Source: Leptolyngbya sp. FACHB-321
Lineage (GTDB): Bacteria; Cyanobacteriota; Cyanobacteriia; Leptolyngbyales; Leptolyngbyaceae
Reading direction: 5' to 3'
Assembly (NCBI RefSeq): GCF_014695975.1
Contig: NZ_JACJPI010000084.1
Coordinates: 1 to 64,000, forward strand
DNA: 64,000 nt
Positions 54,196 to 61,264 of the stretch are shown piece after piece. The position numbers were made by a program, and so were the translations under genes. Within the stretch, counting starts at the first letter, position 1. Each line of letters starts with the position of its first letter. The notes below the pieces were generated by a model. That model was given only the letters and a program-made list of their open reading frames with translations, searched no databases and was not told where the DNA came from.

Positions 54196-54286
54196 TGGGT
54201 TTGCTTCTTGACACCACTGGTTGCTAACCACTGATCCCTAGTTCCAAGACCGAGTTATCCTGGAAGTCTGCTTACTGTGGTTGTTT

Positions 54287-55891
54287 ATGCTCCAGACCCG
54301 TCGATCGCGTCCATCATTGTTTTCTGCTGCCTGGTTGTCTCCTACAAGCATAGCCAGAACCATCGTGCTGCTACTGTTGCTGCTAGTCGGCTGGAGTACG
54401 GTGCCAGCAGCGGCATGGGCACGCACGGAAACGGCACCAACGGCTCAGCAAACGCCAGCGCAGTCGATTCAGCCGTATCTCGATCGGGTGATTCAACAGA
54501 TTACAGAATTTCGTTTGTCGAATGGCATGAAATTTATTGTGCTGGAGCGGCATCAGGCTCCAGTGATTTCGTTTCTTACCTATGCCAATGTGGGGGGTGC
54601 CGATGAACCAGACGGCAAAACGGGGGTCGCGCACTTTCTAGAACACCTTGCCTTTAAAGGGACGACCCGCATTGGCACTGTCGATTACAAAGCAGAAGCA
54701 CCGCTACTAGACAAGCTCGATCAACTAGCAGCACAAATCCAGACAGCAACGGCGCAAGGACAGAAAGCAAAACTAGACACACTTAAGGCAGAATTTGCCA
54801 AGGTGGAAGCAGCGGCTGCAAAGCTAGTGAAGCAAAACGAGTTGGGGCGCATTGTTGAGCAAGCAGGCGGCGTAGGGCTGAATGCCAATACGTCTACCGA
54901 TGCCACACGCTACTTTTACAGCTTTCCCTCCAACAAGCTGGAACTGTGGATGTCATTGGAGTCTGAGCGGTTTCTAGAACCCGTTTTTCGGGAATTCCAC
55001 AAAGAGCAAGATGTGATTTTAGAGGAGCGGCGACTGCGGACGGATAATTCGCCGATCGGTCAAATGATTGAAGCCTTTTCGGATGTTGCGTTTAAGGTGC
55101 ATCCCTACCGTCGTCCGGTGATTGGCTATAACCAGGATATTCAAGGGCTGACTCGCAAAGATGTACAGGCGTTTTACGACACGCACTATGCGCCAAATAA
55201 TCTGTCGATCGCGATCGTAGGCGATGTGAACCCAGCCGAAGTGAAGCGGCTAGCGCAGCTTTACTTTGGTCGCTTTAAGGCAAAACCGGCACCGCCAGAA
55301 GTAGTAGCTGCCGAGCCTGCCCAAACAGAGCTACGCGAAGTCACGCTACGACTGGAAACGCAGCCGTGGTATCTCGAAGGCTATCACCGTCCGGCTCTCA
55401 AGCATCCAGACGATGTGATTTACGACATGATTGCCAGTATTCTCAGCGAGGGGCGTACGTCACGGCTGTATCGATCGTTAGTCGAAAAACAACAGTTGGC
55501 GCTTAACGCGGCTGGCTTCAGTGGTTTTCCGGGTAATAAGTTTCCCAATTTGATGCTGTTCTATGCGCTGACGGCTCCAGGGCATACCGTCGATGAAGTG
55601 GCAGCCGCGCTACGTGTAGAGATCGATCGTCTGAAAACTGAACTGGTGTCAGTGACCGAACTCGATCGTGTGAAAACGCAAGCGCGAGCAGGCTTGTTGC
55701 GATCGCTCGACTCCGATATGGGCATGGCGCAAGCCTTGTTGGAATACGACGTCAAAACTGGCAGTTGGCGTAACTTGTTCAAACAAATCGACGAAATTGC
55801 AGCCGTTACTCCACAGGCAGTACAGCGCATTGCCCAGGCAACCTTCGTACCCCAAAACCGTACGATCGGCAAACTGCTGCCGAAAGCCTAA
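54287..55891 (+). CDS. M16 zinc peptidase, catalytic subunit
   Basis: A 534-residue exported protease. A signal sequence (SIARTIVLLLLLLVGWSTV) precedes an alanine-rich cleavage site. The inverted zinc motif HFLEH (116-120) is intact, with the downstream Glu probably in SLESERF. A coiled-coil insertion of about 60 residues (QLAAQIQTATAQGQ to AKLVKQNE) separates them. The ATG at 54287 is preferred over a TTG at 54281. The next gene encodes a partner without the zinc motif, as in two-subunit M16B enzymes. Confidence 0.93.
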   Translation: MLQTRRSRPSLFSAAWLSPTSIARTIVLLLLLLVGWSTVPAAAWARTETAPTAQQTPAQSIQPYLDRVIQQITEFRLSNGMKFIVLERHQAPVISFLTYANVGGADEPDGKTGVAHFLEHLAFKGTTRIGTVDYKAEAPLLDKLDQLAAQIQTATAQGQKAKLDTLKAEFAKVEAAAAKLVKQNELGRIVEQAGGVGLNANTSTDATRYFYSFPSNKLELWMSLESERFLEPVFREFHKEQDVILEERRLRTDNSPIGQMIEAFSDVAFKVHPYRRPVIGYNQDIQGLTRKDVQAFYDTHYAPNNLSIAIVGDVNPAEVKRLAQLYFGRFKAKPAPPEVVAAEPAQTELREVTLRLETQPWYLEGYHRPALKHPDDVIYDMIASILSEGRTSRLYRSLVEKQQLALNAAGFSGFPGNKFPNLMLFYALTAPGHTVDEVAAALRVEIDRLKTELVSVTELDRVKTQARAGLLRSLDSDMGMAQALLEYDVKTGSWRNLFKQIDEIAAVTPQAVQRIAQATFVPQNRTIGKLLPKA

Positions 55892-55976
55892 AAGCAGTAG
55901 CTAACTTAATGACAGCAGCAGCCAGATTTAAAGCAGGCGTTGCTCAACGTGAACCTAGCCCTAGTGAGACGAACAA

Positions 55977-57461
55977 ATGACAGCAGACGCTAAAAAGCAG
56001 AAAGTAGCAAAAACGATCACGCTGGTCTTTTCCTTTGTGCTGGTGCCGCTCATTCTGCTGTTCATGGCATTCCGTCCGGCAGTAGCAGAAACACCGAAGC
56101 ATTATACAGACTTGACGTTTGCACCGCCGCCAGAGTTGAAGCTGCCAGATTACACACGCTTCAAGTTGGCAAATGGCATGGTGGTTTATCTAGTAGAAGA
56201 CCACGAACTACCATTAATTAATGGGACAGCGCTGATTCGCACAGGCGATCGTCTGGAGCCGTCAGACAAAGTGGGGCTAGCAGAATTGGTCGGGACAGTG
56301 ATGCGATCGGGCGGCACACAAAAACATACCGCCGATGCCATCAACGAATTTTTAGAGCAACGGGCGGCATCTGTAGAAACAGGGATCGGCGATGATGCTG
56401 GCAGTGCTGGGTTTGACACACTTACGGAAGATTTGCCAGAAGTCTTTGCACTGTTTGCTGAAACGTTGCGACAACCTGCGTTTCCCGATGACAAGCTCAA
56501 CCTGGCAAAAACGCAGCAGCGCGGTGGCATTGCCCGTCGGAATGACGATCCAGACTCGATCGCCAGTCGTGAATTTCGCAAGCTAGTCTATGGCGATCGC
56601 AGCCCCTATGCTCGCTTTGTGGAATATGCCACCCTCGCTAACGTCTCGCGTGATGATCTTGTCAGTTTTTACCAGCAATACTTTCACCCAAACAATATTC
56701 TGCTGGGCATCGTCGGTGACTTTGATACGAAGTCAATGCGTCAGCTTGTCGAAACGACATTTGCGGACTGGAAGCCTGTAACGGCAGCACCCCCAGCATT
56801 GCCAACAGTGGAGCAGGCAAAAAAAGGCGGTGTCTTTTTTGTAAATCAGCCCCAGCTAACGCAAAGCAATGTGCAGATTGGTCATCTGGGTGGACAAGCA
56901 AACAGCCCCGACTATCCCGCGCTATCGGTTATGAATGAAGTGCTAAATGGCTTTGGCGGGCGACTATTTAATGAGGTGCGATCGCGTCAGGGGTTAGCGT
57001 ATTCAGTCTATGCCTATTGGGGGTCGCGGTATGACTACCCTGGGCTTTTTGTAGCAGGTGGACAGACCCGATCGGATGCCACTGTACCGTTCATCAAAAG
57101 TGTGCAGGCAGAAATCCAGAAAGTCCGCACTGCGCCTATTGCCCCCGTAGAGCTTGCCTTTGCAAAAGATTCAGTGCTCAATTCCTTTATTTTCAACTTT
57201 CAACAGCCTGAGCAGACGCTTTCTCGCCTACTGCGTTACGAATACTTTGGCTACCCGGCTGATTTCATTTTCCGCTATCAAAAGGGTGTAGCTGCAACGA
57301 CGATCGCCGATGTGCAGCGCGTTGCCAAAACCTACTTACAGCCAGACAAAATCGTCACGCTAGTAGTTGGCAATCAAGCCACAATCAAACCATCGTTAGA
57401 TACTTTGGGGCAGCCCGTAACGACACTCGACATTACCATCCCAGCCCCAAGTAAGAGCTAG
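55977..57461 (+). CDS. M16 peptidase-like non-catalytic subunit
   Basis: A 494-residue protein with an N-terminal membrane segment (about 15-36), then an M16 fold in which the HxxEH segment is replaced by GLAELVGTVMRSGG. It retains the substrate-positioning Arg/Tyr region typical of the partner subunit (GGRLFNEVRSRQGLAYSVYA). In two-subunit M16B proteases one chain supplies zinc and the other these residues. It starts 85 bases after the catalytic subunit, so the two are probably one operon and one periplasmic complex. Confidence 0.92.
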   Translation: MTADAKKQKVAKTITLVFSFVLVPLILLFMAFRPAVAETPKHYTDLTFAPPPELKLPDYTRFKLANGMVVYLVEDHELPLINGTALIRTGDRLEPSDKVGLAELVGTVMRSGGTQKHTADAINEFLEQRAASVETGIGDDAGSAGFDTLTEDLPEVFALFAETLRQPAFPDDKLNLAKTQQRGGIARRNDDPDSIASREFRKLVYGDRSPYARFVEYATLANVSRDDLVSFYQQYFHPNNILLGIVGDFDTKSMRQLVETTFADWKPVTAAPPALPTVEQAKKGGVFFVNQPQLTQSNVQIGHLGGQANSPDYPALSVMNEVLNGFGGRLFNEVRSRQGLAYSVYAYWGSRYDYPGLFVAGGQTRSDATVPFIKSVQAEIQKVRTAPIAPVELAFAKDSVLNSFIFNFQQPEQTLSRLLRYEYFGYPADFIFRYQKGVAATTIADVQRVAKTYLQPDKIVTLVVGNQATIKPSLDTLGQPVTTLDITIPAPSKS

Positions 57462-57687
57462 GCACTGTCTAACATCACGCTGCTTTTACTGGCAAAGCTG
57501 CAATGCAGTTGTAGAGCAGCCGGTTTCAGCCAGTGATGTATAGCGCGCAGCATAAGTTTTTACTGCCAAAGTCTTAACTTTAGGTAAGGAGATGTGCCAT
57601 GATGGCGGCGAGGAGCGAGAAGGCAATCAGTGCAGGTTTCACGCTCATACGAACGAGTCCGCGCGAGTCTTACCCTCAGAGAACAAT

Positions 57688-58131
57688 ATGTTTAGAAAAA
57701 ATACGCCTCCACCCTCAAAAGTCCTACCAACCTACATTGCGCCGAACAGCGAGTTTCAGGGCACCCTGCACGTTGAAGGCGATCTGCTTGTGGATGGTAT
57801 TGTGCATGGCACGGTCGAAGTGCAGGGCGATATGCAGATATCGGAAAGCGGTCTCATTGAGGGACCTGAGGTACGGGCTAAGAACCTGACGGTGTATGGA
57901 GTGCTCAAGGCGCGAGTGCTGGTAGAAGGGAAGCTCACGTTAAGTCGTACGGCTCGGTTAGAAGGTGATGTCACTGCCAGTGCCCTTAGCGTTGAAGAAG
58001 GCGCATTCTATGTCGGCTACATTGACACAGGCGAGACACGATCGCTATCTGGGGGGAGAACGCGACCGGAACTAGTTGGTACTGGCGATCCTTATGCTGG
58101 CGATCCTTATACGGGTGGTCTTGGTGGCTGA
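57688..58131 (+). CDS. Bactofilin
   Basis: A 147-residue bactofilin: a disordered N-terminus (MFRKNTPPPSKVLPTYIA) and a right-handed beta-helix of short repeats (GTLHVEGDLLVDGIVHGTVEVQ, read in parts). Bactofilins polymerise without nucleotides and act as cytoskeletal scaffolds in cell shape and polarity. The ATG at 57688 is preferred to an upstream open stretch from 57592 because the family motif PPPS...YI occurs right after it. It lies upstream of the dikinase fusion. Confidence 0.9.
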   Translation: MFRKNTPPPSKVLPTYIAPNSEFQGTLHVEGDLLVDGIVHGTVEVQGDMQISESGLIEGPEVRAKNLTVYGVLKARVLVEGKLTLSRTARLEGDVTASALSVEEGAFYVGYIDTGETRSLSGGRTRPELVGTGDPYAGDPYTGGLGG

Positions 58132-58200
58132 TGCTTCTAGCAATTAATTTTTGGCAAATCTCCGACTTCTTTATCTAGCCCTAATTAGATTGCTCGTAGC

Positions 58201-58313
58201 TGATGCAGCAGTCGGGAATCTAGGATCTAACCTGCGTCACAGACACCCAACGTCTTTGTTCGTGTCATGATTGGCTTGCCTGAACCTGATGCAGTCGGGA
58301 AGCTAGAATCTAA
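58201..58313 (+). repeat. Direct repeat before the PlsY-dikinase gene
   Basis: TGATGCAGCAGTCGGGAATC-TAGGATCTAA at 58201-58230 recurs as TGATGCAGTCGGGAAGC-TAGAATCTAA at 58287-58313, the second copy ending about eight bases before the start codon. It may be a duplicated promoter or regulator site. Confidence 0.65.
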
Positions 58314-58321
58314 TTGACATT

Positions 58322-61264
58322 ATGACGCTAACGCAAGTTTGGGGTGCGCTGCTGCTTTTCATTGTCTGTCCGCTGTTGGGCGGGCTGCCCCTCATCGCTT
58401 GGACAACCTATGCTCTGACGCGACGACGGCTAGCCAGGTTGGGCACTGGCAACATTAGCGTTTCAGCCGCTTTTTACCATGGTGGACGAGTAGCAGGCAT
58501 TGCAGCAGTTTTGTCGGAAGCGCTGAAGGGCATTGCTACCGTTTTGCTGGCGCGATCGTTTTTTCCAGCCGATCCTGCCTGGGAACTGGTAGCACTCATG
58601 GCACTGGTAGTCGGGCGCTACTGGTTTGGCAAGGGAGCAGGAACGACGAACGTTGTCTGGGGCTACGTTGTTCACGACCCGACCGCCGCTGGCTTTGTCT
58701 TTCTCATTAGCGGTATTAGCTTTACTGTTCTGCGTGAACGGCAACAGGGGCGACTGAGCGTTTTAGTCATCTTTCCCCTCATGACGGCGTTACGCCATTC
58801 CTCTGATCACGCGCTTATTGGAGCCGCGATCGTCCTTGCAATTCTGTTGGGCTGGATTTATACAAAGCTTCCCGATGACCTGGATTTAGCTCCAACATCG
58901 GCTCAGTCAGGGTCTAAAGCAATGTTCAAATTTTTTCGGAGCGATCGCGCCATTCGCTCGTTGAATGATCTGTTGGATGTTCGTAAGGTCGGGCAAAAAG
59001 CCGCAACACTCGCACAGTTGAAGCGATCGGGCTATCCCGTACCGATGGGCTGGGTGCTGAGTCCTGGTGACGACCCAGAGCCGCTGGTAGAGTTACTCAA
59101 CCCGTCTCCAAAAGCACCGCTCATCGTGCGATCGTCAGCTGTGGGCGAAGATTCAGAAACCGCATCAGCAGCAGGGCAGTACGAATCGATTGCAGGCATT
59201 GTCCGCCGTGAGCAGTTATTACCTGCTATTTCTCGTTGCTTTGCCTCATATAACGAACCTAGTGCTGTGCAATATCGACGCGATCGCCAGCTTCCTGATG
59301 CCGCCATGGCAGTCTTGATCCAGCAGCAGGTGCGGGGAGCGTTTTCGGGTGTCGCCTTTAGCCGTGATCCCATTGCGCGACAAGGCGAGGCCGTGGCGAT
59401 CGAAGCGCTTCCAGGCAGCGCGTCTCAGGTCGTATCGGGACAAGTCACGCCTGAAAGCTATCAGGTGATGGTGCCTACAATTGACGTTCAGCCTGCAACG
59501 GCTCAGACTCCAGCAGATTGGTTGTTACCGGACGATCGCACTCTGGCAATCAACGGTAGTGGCACTGTGCCACCACGACTTATCCAGCAGGTCGCATTTT
59601 TGGCAAGACATTTAGAGGCGCAACGCAGCATTCCCCAAGATATCGAGTGGAGCTATGATGGTCAGCAACTTTGGCTCTTGCAGGCGCGACCGATCACCAC
59701 ACTGCTGCCGATCTGGACGCGCAAGATTGCGGCGGAGGTGATTCCTGGGTCGATTCGTCCCCTTACCTGGTCAATTAATCGTCCTCTTACCTGCGGCGTT
59801 TGGGGCGATCTCTTTACCCTCGTCTTGGGCAAGCGTGGCGAGGGTTTAGACTTCAATGAAACTGCTACGCTGCATTACTCCCATGCCTACTTTAATGCCT
59901 CACTGTTAGGACAACTGTTTCGACGGATGGGGTTGCCACCCGAAAGTCTAGAGTTTCTCACACGCGGCGCGAAGTTTAGCAAACCACCGCTGCAATCTAC
60001 ACTGCGAAACGTACCCGGACTTCTGCGTCTAGTCGGTCGAGAATGGCAGCTAGAGAAAGATTTCCAACGCGACGATCGTCGTCAATTTGCGCCTGCACTA
60101 GCAGAGTTTTCTCAACAACCAGCCTCTGAACTCAAGCCAGCAGCGCTTCTTGCGAGGATTGATCGTATCCTCAATCTCCTCCAAACCGCCACGTACTACA
60201 GTATTTTGGCTCCCCTTAGCGCTGCCCTTCGCAAAGCCATCTTTAAGGCGAATGATGAACAACTGGACAACAGCGATACGCCAGAGATTGCGGCATTACG
60301 ATCGCTTCAGGCATTAGCGAGAGAGGCGCGAGCTTTTCTGGAGAAGCAATCAGCAGTCGGCGGTCAGCATTCAGTAGAAGCATTGTTCACCCTGTTGGCA
60401 CGGTTGCCTGAAGGACAGGTAATCTTAGCTCGGTTTGATACGCTGTTGGAGCAATACGGCTACTTAAGTGAAGTGGGAACTGATATTGCGGTGCCAACCT
60501 GGCGCGAAGATCCGCAGCCTGTACGATCGCTCTTTACTCAGTTTTGTCAGGATTTACCACCAATTGCATCTCCAGTCGATCGCCAAAGCGGCAACGTGAA
60601 GCGAGTACAACGTCGTTTGACGCTGAAAGGACGAGTAACAGAGGTCTATAGCCGTTTGCTTGCAGAACTACGCTGGAGTTTTGTGGCGCTAGAGCAACTT
60701 TGGCTAGAGTCAGGCTTGCTGGCAGAAGCGGGAGATATCTTTTTCCTGGAGTGGGAGGAGATTCAGCGATTGGTAGAGAGAGGAGAGGGGAGAGGGGAAA
60801 ACATTCAGAAGCTAGTAGAGGGACGACGATCGCAGTTTGAAGCCGATCGCGCCCTTGAAGCAGTGCCCTATCTGGTTTATGGGAATGATCCGCCTGCTCC
60901 AGCCGTTAGTTCGCACAACTGGCAAGCATCACAGCAGTTGCAGGGCATTGGAGCAAGCCCGGGACAGGTAGAGGGCGTTGTCAAAGTGGTGCGGAGTTTG
61001 ACAGCGTTGCCAGAGATTGATCGCGAAACCATTCTCGTTGTGCCATACACTGATTCTGGTTGGGCACCGCTACTGGCAAGGGCGGGAGGACTCATTGCAG
61101 AAGTGGGTGGAAGACTATCGCATGGGGCGATCGTCGCTCGTGAGTACCGCATCCCTGCCGTCATGGACATTCAAAACGCAACCCAATTGCTACAAGATGG
61201 TCAGCGCGTTCGCATTGATGGGCAAAAAGGTACTATCGAGATTCTCCCAGCTATAGATGAATAG
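58322..61264 (+). CDS. Fusion of PlsY-like membrane domain to PEP-synthase/RPH-like dikinase
   Basis: A 980-residue fusion. Residues 1 to about 185 form a polytopic domain like the acyl-phosphate:glycerol-3-phosphate acyltransferase PlsY (GTGNISVSAAFYHGG, 41-55; GRYWFGKGAGTTNVVWG, 98-114). The PlsY His before FP is Arg here. From about 207 it is an ATP-grasp domain of the PEP synthase/rifampin phosphotransferase type (KAATLAQLKRSGYPVP; VRSSAVGEDSETASAAGQYES). A helical middle region follows. The swivelling His domain at the C-terminus has GGRLSHGAIVARE with H934. A short repeat peptide (SAVGGQHS) sits near 680. Likely at the inner membrane; reaction unknown. Confidence 0.88.
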   Translation: MTLTQVWGALLLFIVCPLLGGLPLIAWTTYALTRRRLARLGTGNISVSAAFYHGGRVAGIAAVLSEALKGIATVLLARSFFPADPAWELVALMALVVGRYWFGKGAGTTNVVWGYVVHDPTAAGFVFLISGISFTVLRERQQGRLSVLVIFPLMTALRHSSDHALIGAAIVLAILLGWIYTKLPDDLDLAPTSAQSGSKAMFKFFRSDRAIRSLNDLLDVRKVGQKAATLAQLKRSGYPVPMGWVLSPGDDPEPLVELLNPSPKAPLIVRSSAVGEDSETASAAGQYESIAGIVRREQLLPAISRCFASYNEPSAVQYRRDRQLPDAAMAVLIQQQVRGAFSGVAFSRDPIARQGEAVAIEALPGSASQVVSGQVTPESYQVMVPTIDVQPATAQTPADWLLPDDRTLAINGSGTVPPRLIQQVAFLARHLEAQRSIPQDIEWSYDGQQLWLLQARPITTLLPIWTRKIAAEVIPGSIRPLTWSINRPLTCGVWGDLFTLVLGKRGEGLDFNETATLHYSHAYFNASLLGQLFRRMGLPPESLEFLTRGAKFSKPPLQSTLRNVPGLLRLVGREWQLEKDFQRDDRRQFAPALAEFSQQPASELKPAALLARIDRILNLLQTATYYSILAPLSAALRKAIFKANDEQLDNSDTPEIAALRSLQALAREARAFLEKQSAVGGQHSVEALFTLLARLPEGQVILARFDTLLEQYGYLSEVGTDIAVPTWREDPQPVRSLFTQFCQDLPPIASPVDRQSGNVKRVQRRLTLKGRVTEVYSRLLAELRWSFVALEQLWLESGLLAEAGDIFFLEWEEIQRLVERGEGRGENIQKLVEGRRSQFEADRALEAVPYLVYGNDPPAPAVSSHNWQASQQLQGIGASPGQVEGVVKVVRSLTALPEIDRETILVVPYTDSGWAPLLARAGGLIAEVGGRLSHGAIVAREYRIPAVMDIQNATQLLQDGQRVRIDGQKGTIEILPAIDE

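Follow-up and report, generated by a model that had tools for sequence, protein, structure and literature searches.

PlsY (YgiH, PF02660) is the acyl-phosphate:glycerol-3-phosphate acyltransferase, and its natural donor is an acyl phosphate. The Aquifex enzyme binds glycerol 3-phosphate through S35, R45, K104 and N180, which clamp its phosphate, and through S142 and H177 at its 2-OH; the acyl phosphate is held by T41, H92 and the GKGVA loop (PMC5700162). Single mutants at these positions were described as having 17% (S35T), 1% (R45A), 6% (R45K), 45% (T41S), 17% (H92A), 2% (H92K), 4% (H177K), 1% (H177Q) and 3% (N180D) of the activity (PMC5700162). For rifampin phosphotransferase (RPH), roles have been described for the ATP-site residues and for His825, and the Arg666-Glu667 pair of the acceptor site is needed for the second transfer and is retained even in the distant clade Q (PMC4844700). 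Where the substrate of an RPH-type member is known, it is a soluble small molecule (rifampin, phenols; PMC4844700, PMC12167813).

We analysed a stretch of 64,000 nucleotides of Leptolyngbya sp. FACHB-321 (contig NZ_JACJPI010000084.1, positions 1 to 64,000), hereafter the window. A sequence-only reading had proposed that a PlsY-like membrane domain and a three-part dikinase are joined there in one reading frame, which is borne out by Pfam and by the presence of both halves in one structure model. The features of this gene are the following:

58322..61264, + strand: fused gene of 980 amino acid residues, one ATG-to-stop frame, PlsY-fold membrane domain and RPH-type dikinase
58322..58891, + strand: PlsY-fold membrane domain, residues 1–190 (PF02660 E 6e-15; model pLDDT 92.6; Z 17–18 and TM-score 0.69–0.74 with PlsY 5xj5-5xj8; hhalign probability against PlsY 97%)
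58442..58486, + strand: changed PlsY motif 1, GTGNxSVSAAFYHGG, residues 41–55 (S35 to T42, N37 equal to N44, T41 to S48, R45 to Y52; residue roles from PMC5700162)
58616..58651, + strand: changed PlsY motif 2 loop, residues 99–110 (invariant R99 for H92; loop 7 residues shorter; (K/R/Q)GAGTTN for GGKGVAT)
58856..58888, + strand: changed PlsY motif 3, IYxKIPDDLxL, residues 179–189 (K182 for H177, D185 for N180)
58940..59701, + strand: ATP-grasp domain with shortened N-lobe, residues 207–460 (K226, R270, S289 and E442 equivalent to RPH K22, R117, T136 and E297)
59702..60931, + strand: central acceptor-type domain, residues 461–870 (conserved WTRKIAAEVIPGxIRPLTWSINRPLTCGVWG block; no recognisable RPH Arg-Glu motif)
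60932..61246, + strand: swivelling phosphohistidine domain, residues 871–975 (PF00391 E 2e-22)
61121..61123, + strand: codon of catalytic His934 (His in 59 of 62 aligned homologues)

In the Pfam scan of the 980-residue protein, G3P_acyltransf matched residues 16–178 (E 6e-15, 56 bits against a cut-off of 24), PPDK_N residues 264–461 (E 4e-43) and the PEP-utilizers mobile domain residues 900–970 (E 2e-22), and the PEP/pyruvate-binding barrel (PF02896) was absent. Among curated families, the dikinase part scored best with PEP-synthase-like subfamilies, RPH and prodigiosin ligases, in every case far under the cut-off (233 bits against 999 for RPH and 173 against 740 for the curated PEP synthase, TIGR01418). 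Taken singly, the two halves are members of known fold families, and their combination would be visible in an automatic annotation of domains. In the same genome (6.7 Mb in 91 contigs), a different contig encodes an ordinary PlsY (E 8e-51), and there is a stand-alone PEP-synthase-type protein that has the PEP-binding barrel (PF02896). In this stand-alone protein (L210:67-2547), VLRPS replaces the VRSS of active dikinases, which may mean an altered ATP site.

The membrane domain, modelled over residues 1–198 with 60 homologues, was predicted with a pLDDT of 92.6 and a pTM of 0.88, and its only match in the PDB was PlsY. Foldseek returned 5xj5 with E 2.6e-4 and TM-score 0.71 (0.69–0.74 across the PlsY entries; next match E 0.86), and comparison with the PlsY crystal structures gave Z 17.4–18.1 over 171–185 residues, against Z 5.6 for the next unrelated chain. 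The highest score, Z 18.1, was that of the acyl-phosphate form 5xj7, on a par with the other PlsY forms. The membrane domain alone gave no real match in a sequence search against the solved structures; the family profile reached PlsY among them with E 0.007. In the full-length model (62 homologues, pLDDT 89.9), residues 209–976 matched Listeria RPH (Z 35, 641–658 residues aligned, Foldseek E 1e-28), with an rmsd of about 22 that presumably reflects a different placement of the domains, and residues 6–209 of the same chain matched PlsY (Z 18); therefore, both halves of the earlier observation hold. The comparison of residues 1–185 with PlsY, set beforehand as a check, returned the PlsY fold over residues 6–190 (Z 17–18) and not the mismatch that would have spoken against it, and the likeness of the dikinase half to RPH was likewise recovered, with the RPH domain order running over residues 208–976. 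Positively charged residues are found both past the last helix and in the loop that precedes motif 1, so that the dikinase most likely faces the cytoplasm.

The predicted fold (about 20% identity over the 171–185 aligned residues) and the membrane topology are those of PlsY, and the fusion also has a GTGN-like glycine loop and SEAxKG in place of DxxKG. A profile alignment of the fusion family with 12 cyanobacterial PlsYs and Aquifex PlsY paired S35 with T42, N37 with N44, T41 with S48, R45 with Y52, H92 with R99, H177 with K182 and, by continuing the motif, N180 with D185. PlsY K104 pairs with K104 of the fusion, a position occupied by Lys, Arg or Gln across the family, and position 182 is Lys, Gln or Arg. 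Several of these changes coincide and are family-wide: among 62 aligned homologues, T42 is present in 59, Y52 in 57, R99 in 62 and D185 in 60. By alignment, the glycerol-3-phosphate clamp and 2-OH site of PlsY (S35, R45, K104, N180 and H177) are not kept. The acyl-phosphate hole (T41, H92 and the GGKGVA loop) is not kept as such: T41 is Ser48, H92 is Arg99 in every homologue, and the glycine loop is partly retained and 7 residues shorter. The side that receives the lipid phosphate in PlsY is altered yet still polar in the fusion, and the clamp is gone. The GTGN-type motif described earlier is present at residues 41–44, and the loss of a PlsY His to Arg was also rightly noticed; the site, however, is just before motif 2 (the GGKG loop) and not before the third motif.

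The membrane domain, judged by its residues, is very probably not a working standard PlsY acyltransferase, from which it also differs in being joined to a dikinase and in coexisting with an ordinary PlsY in the same genome. Since the three remodelled membrane loops are better conserved (mean majority fraction 0.77–0.78) than TM1-2 and TM5-7 (0.57–0.64), they probably have a specific role, and selection on the remodelled site appears to serve another purpose than PlsY function. The suggestion of the sequence-only reading that this part binds rather than transfers an acyl group is consistent with these residues and may hold. A glycerol-phosphate substrate, which it had also considered, has become less likely, since the replaced residues are those of the glycerol-3-phosphate clamp of PlsY.

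The dikinase half shares with RPH the order of ATP-grasp, central and C-terminal swivelling His domains, the ATP-site K, R, S/T and E, and the catalytic His motif. K226, R270, S/T289, E442 and H934 correspond to RPH K22, R117, T136, E297 and H825, and the ATP-site residues are kept in 60 (K226), 62 (R270), 60 (S/T289) and 62 (E442) of 62 aligned homologues. H934 had been taken as the catalytic His of the swivelling domain, and it is indeed at that position (GGRLSHGAIVAREY), being kept in 59 of the 62 and in 148 of 152 homologues. A block of the central domain, residues 461–560, is strongly conserved (0.84). The differences from RPH are the N-terminal membrane domain, the shortened N-lobe of the ATP-grasp domain and an acceptor domain in which the Arg666-Glu667 pair has no conserved counterpart; two sequence alignment methods leave a gap there. 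K769-G770, reached by an ungapped count back from the DIFFL motif, was considered as a possible equivalent of this pair and set aside as unproved. The first half-reaction, from ATP to phospho-His, is well supported by conservation, because the ATP-site residues and the phospho-carrier His are almost invariant; the second, from phospho-His to an acceptor, we infer, since the Arg-Glu pair is not recognisable in the fusion.

Phosphoenolpyruvate synthase and pyruvate phosphate dikinase also have ATP-grasp and swivelling His domains, but in the fusion the His domain is C-terminal and not in the middle, and the PEP/pyruvate-binding barrel is missing. The two-component phenol dikinases HpeHI, CreHI and PpsAB have RPH-like parts and the same chemistry would be expected of them; unlike the fusion, they are two separate proteins, act on phenolic substrates and have no membrane domain. 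From its residues, the fusion would be an RPH-type dikinase in its working, yet strictly neither a PlsY enzyme, nor RPH, nor a PEP synthase.

We searched the membrane and central domains separately in 292 genomes drawn from the phylum. Both were found in the same 84 genomes, all in the class of the window and distributed over 23 families; the few other matches of either search were weak, and within this class neither domain was observed without the other. The fusion is one continuous frame in 82 of the 84, which is far beyond chance. In the two exceptions it is broken by contig ends (G074) or shows a frame change at the IYQKL/DDLDL junction (G215, L125), where the apparent split looks like a frameshift at the junction of the halves. 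The earlier reading had raised an assembly join of two ordinary genes as what would overturn it; we rejected this, as relatives have the same single frame. A scan of species genomes gave 218 related loci, the best 80 of which were cyanobacterial (e.g., Nostoc, Anabaena, Moorena, Leptolyngbya and Chlorogloeopsis) with the exception of one contig (L092) filed under a Tatlockia MAG, which is probably a binning error, since its neighbours are shared with the Aliterella lineage of cyanobacteria. A plasmid search matched dikinases only; all lacked the membrane part, and all covered less than 80% of the fusion. The identities of the two halves co-vary (Pearson r 0.85 over 1891 pairs), and the fusion looks old and vertically kept rather than recently joined.

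His934 is replaced by Gln in 4 of the 152 homologues, three of family f14 and one (G091) of family f7, and all four have broken membrane motifs. The His was therefore lost in 4 of the 6 sequences with broken motifs and in none of the about 145 with intact ones (Fisher value 7e-7, which ignores relatedness and has about two independent losses behind it). The two sequences that have broken motifs and keep His934 are G174 and a shortened paralogue of 591 residues (L119:4332-6104); the latter has the PlsY-like part, the ATP-grasp and the His swivel, lacks the central acceptor domain, and is encoded in a genome (G170) that carries the full-length fusion besides. These coupled losses would fit a membrane site that serves phosphotransfer, with room for a second, non-catalytic role, and offer a concrete handle for testing.

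The leading reading of this protein, with a probability of roughly 0.45, is an RPH-type dikinase that is bound to the membrane and there phosphorylates a membrane-borne acceptor of lipid type. As the conserved residues and homology suggest, ATP would be bound by the cytoplasmic ATP-grasp domain and its beta-phosphate transferred to His934 on the swivelling domain, the gamma-phosphate leaving as Pi and AMP being released. The phospho-His domain may then swing to the acceptor site of the central domain, beside or jointly with the PlsY-fold domain. The latter would no longer acylate glycerol 3-phosphate, and its remodelled head-group pocket (Arg99, N44, S48 and the GAGTTN loop) may instead hold the lipid-type acceptor or the phosphorylated product. 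The net reaction would be lipid-OH (or lipid acid) + ATP + H2O -> lipid-phosphate + AMP + Pi, with a polyprenol, a diacylglycerol-like lipid, a fatty acid or another compound as candidate acceptor. Both folds in one model, the kept ATP site and His, domains that are never apart in this class and divergences that track each other speak for such a dikinase; the unrecognisable Arg-Glu motif, the soluble small molecules used by known relatives and the 4 of 152 homologues without His934 speak against it. The acceptor, its binding place and the transfer to it are what we infer, and the membrane-bound acceptor that the sequence-only reading had put forward is compatible with this evidence.

If true, a family whose known substrates are mainly small molecules, rifampin and phenols among them, would gain a membrane branch, and lipid phosphates a further route of synthesis in which ATP is converted to AMP. 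A bolder claim, which we put forward with some doubt, is that of a new class of lipid kinases, in which a repurposed PlsY fold would set a dikinase into the membrane and a lipid (e.g., a carrier of the polyprenol or diacylglycerol-like kind) would receive its phosphate from a swivelling phosphohistidine, at the cost of both high-energy bonds of ATP. A literature search with most subscription papers and preprints outside its coverage returned no report of a PlsY-fold/dikinase fusion. Thus, for a fusion widely kept in cyanobacteria we found no assigned function, and its Pfam domains would name it after activities that are very probably absent.

The main rival to a lipid-acceptor dikinase is a dikinase whose acceptor is small and soluble, the PlsY fold serving to anchor it in the membrane or to sense lipids. 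We regard it as rather unlikely, even if it would agree with the action of RPH on rifampin and of HpeHI on phenols (PMC4844700, PMC12167813), with the central domain having its own strongly conserved block and with the cupin gene that overlaps the stop of the fusion in many Nostoc-type genomes. A mere anchor would need neither three conserved polar loops, nor an invariant Arg99, nor a fusion that stays in one frame in 82 of 84 genomes.

Next comes a two-step enzyme, in which the dikinase would make an acyl phosphate from a fatty acid and the PlsY fold would transfer the acyl group from it to some acceptor that is not glycerol 3-phosphate. An acyl phosphate is the natural donor of PlsY, on the acyl-phosphate side N37 is retained as N44 and T41 corresponds to S48 (T41S has 45% activity in PlsY) whereas the acceptor side is changed, and the best structure match is the acyl-phosphate form, though tied with others. 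However, the change of H92 to Arg (H92K has 2% activity in PlsY) and the shorter phosphate loop alter the acyl-phosphate hole, and we know of no RPH-type dikinase acting on carboxylates, which makes this explanation improbable.

More improbable still is a protein that can do without phosphotransfer and whose role is chiefly structural or regulatory. It would suit family f14 (L113-L115), whose sole copy lacks K226, His934 and the membrane glycine motif, and in which a dN/dS of about 0.07 between two close genomes indicates purifying selection. This protein, probably a pseudo-dikinase, would thus keep some role, and part of the function of the fusion may not need phosphotransfer, since one lineage without His934 is still under selection. 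Such losses concern about two lineages only, against 148 of 152 homologues with the catalytic His. Finally, the Pfam names of both parts would point to a PEP synthase joined to a further functional glycerol-3-phosphate acyltransferase, but this is hardly tenable, given that R45, H92, H177 and N180 are all replaced (single changes leave about 1–17% of PlsY activity), that PF02896 is absent and that an ordinary PlsY and a separate barrel-bearing PEP-synthase-type protein are encoded in the same genome.

No universal gene partner of the fusion was found across the sampled neighbourhoods. Two genes recur downstream. One encodes a YegS/DAGK-type lipid kinase and was seen in families f3 and f7 and in the Aliterella lineage, with ExoD next to it in three loci; the other encodes a PMT-type glycosyltransferase (f14, f20 and f22) and overlaps the fusion in f20. 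PMT-type enzymes use lipid-linked sugars. These lipid-linked partners give weak backing to a lipid role, and most neighbourhoods share no lipid gene. In Nostoc-type genomes, a divergent GDSL hydrolase was observed besides the cupin gene, and a few of these genomes have an upstream acyltransferase. In the window, a bactofilin gene (57592-58131, PF04519) ends 190 bases upstream of the fusion, as had been reported. It is not a general feature: a functional link was rejected, as an upstream bactofilin is limited to five loci of the close relatives of the window. Between these two genes, just upstream of the fusion start, there is an imperfect tandem duplication of 83-86 bases (58184-58313; GCAGTCGGGAATCTAGGATCTAA and GCAGTCGGGAAGCTAGAATCTAA), whose core was found nowhere else in the genome nor upstream of the fusion in five relatives. 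The bactofilin gene is itself preceded by two adjacent genes (54281-57461) that, by eye, resemble M16-type peptidases.
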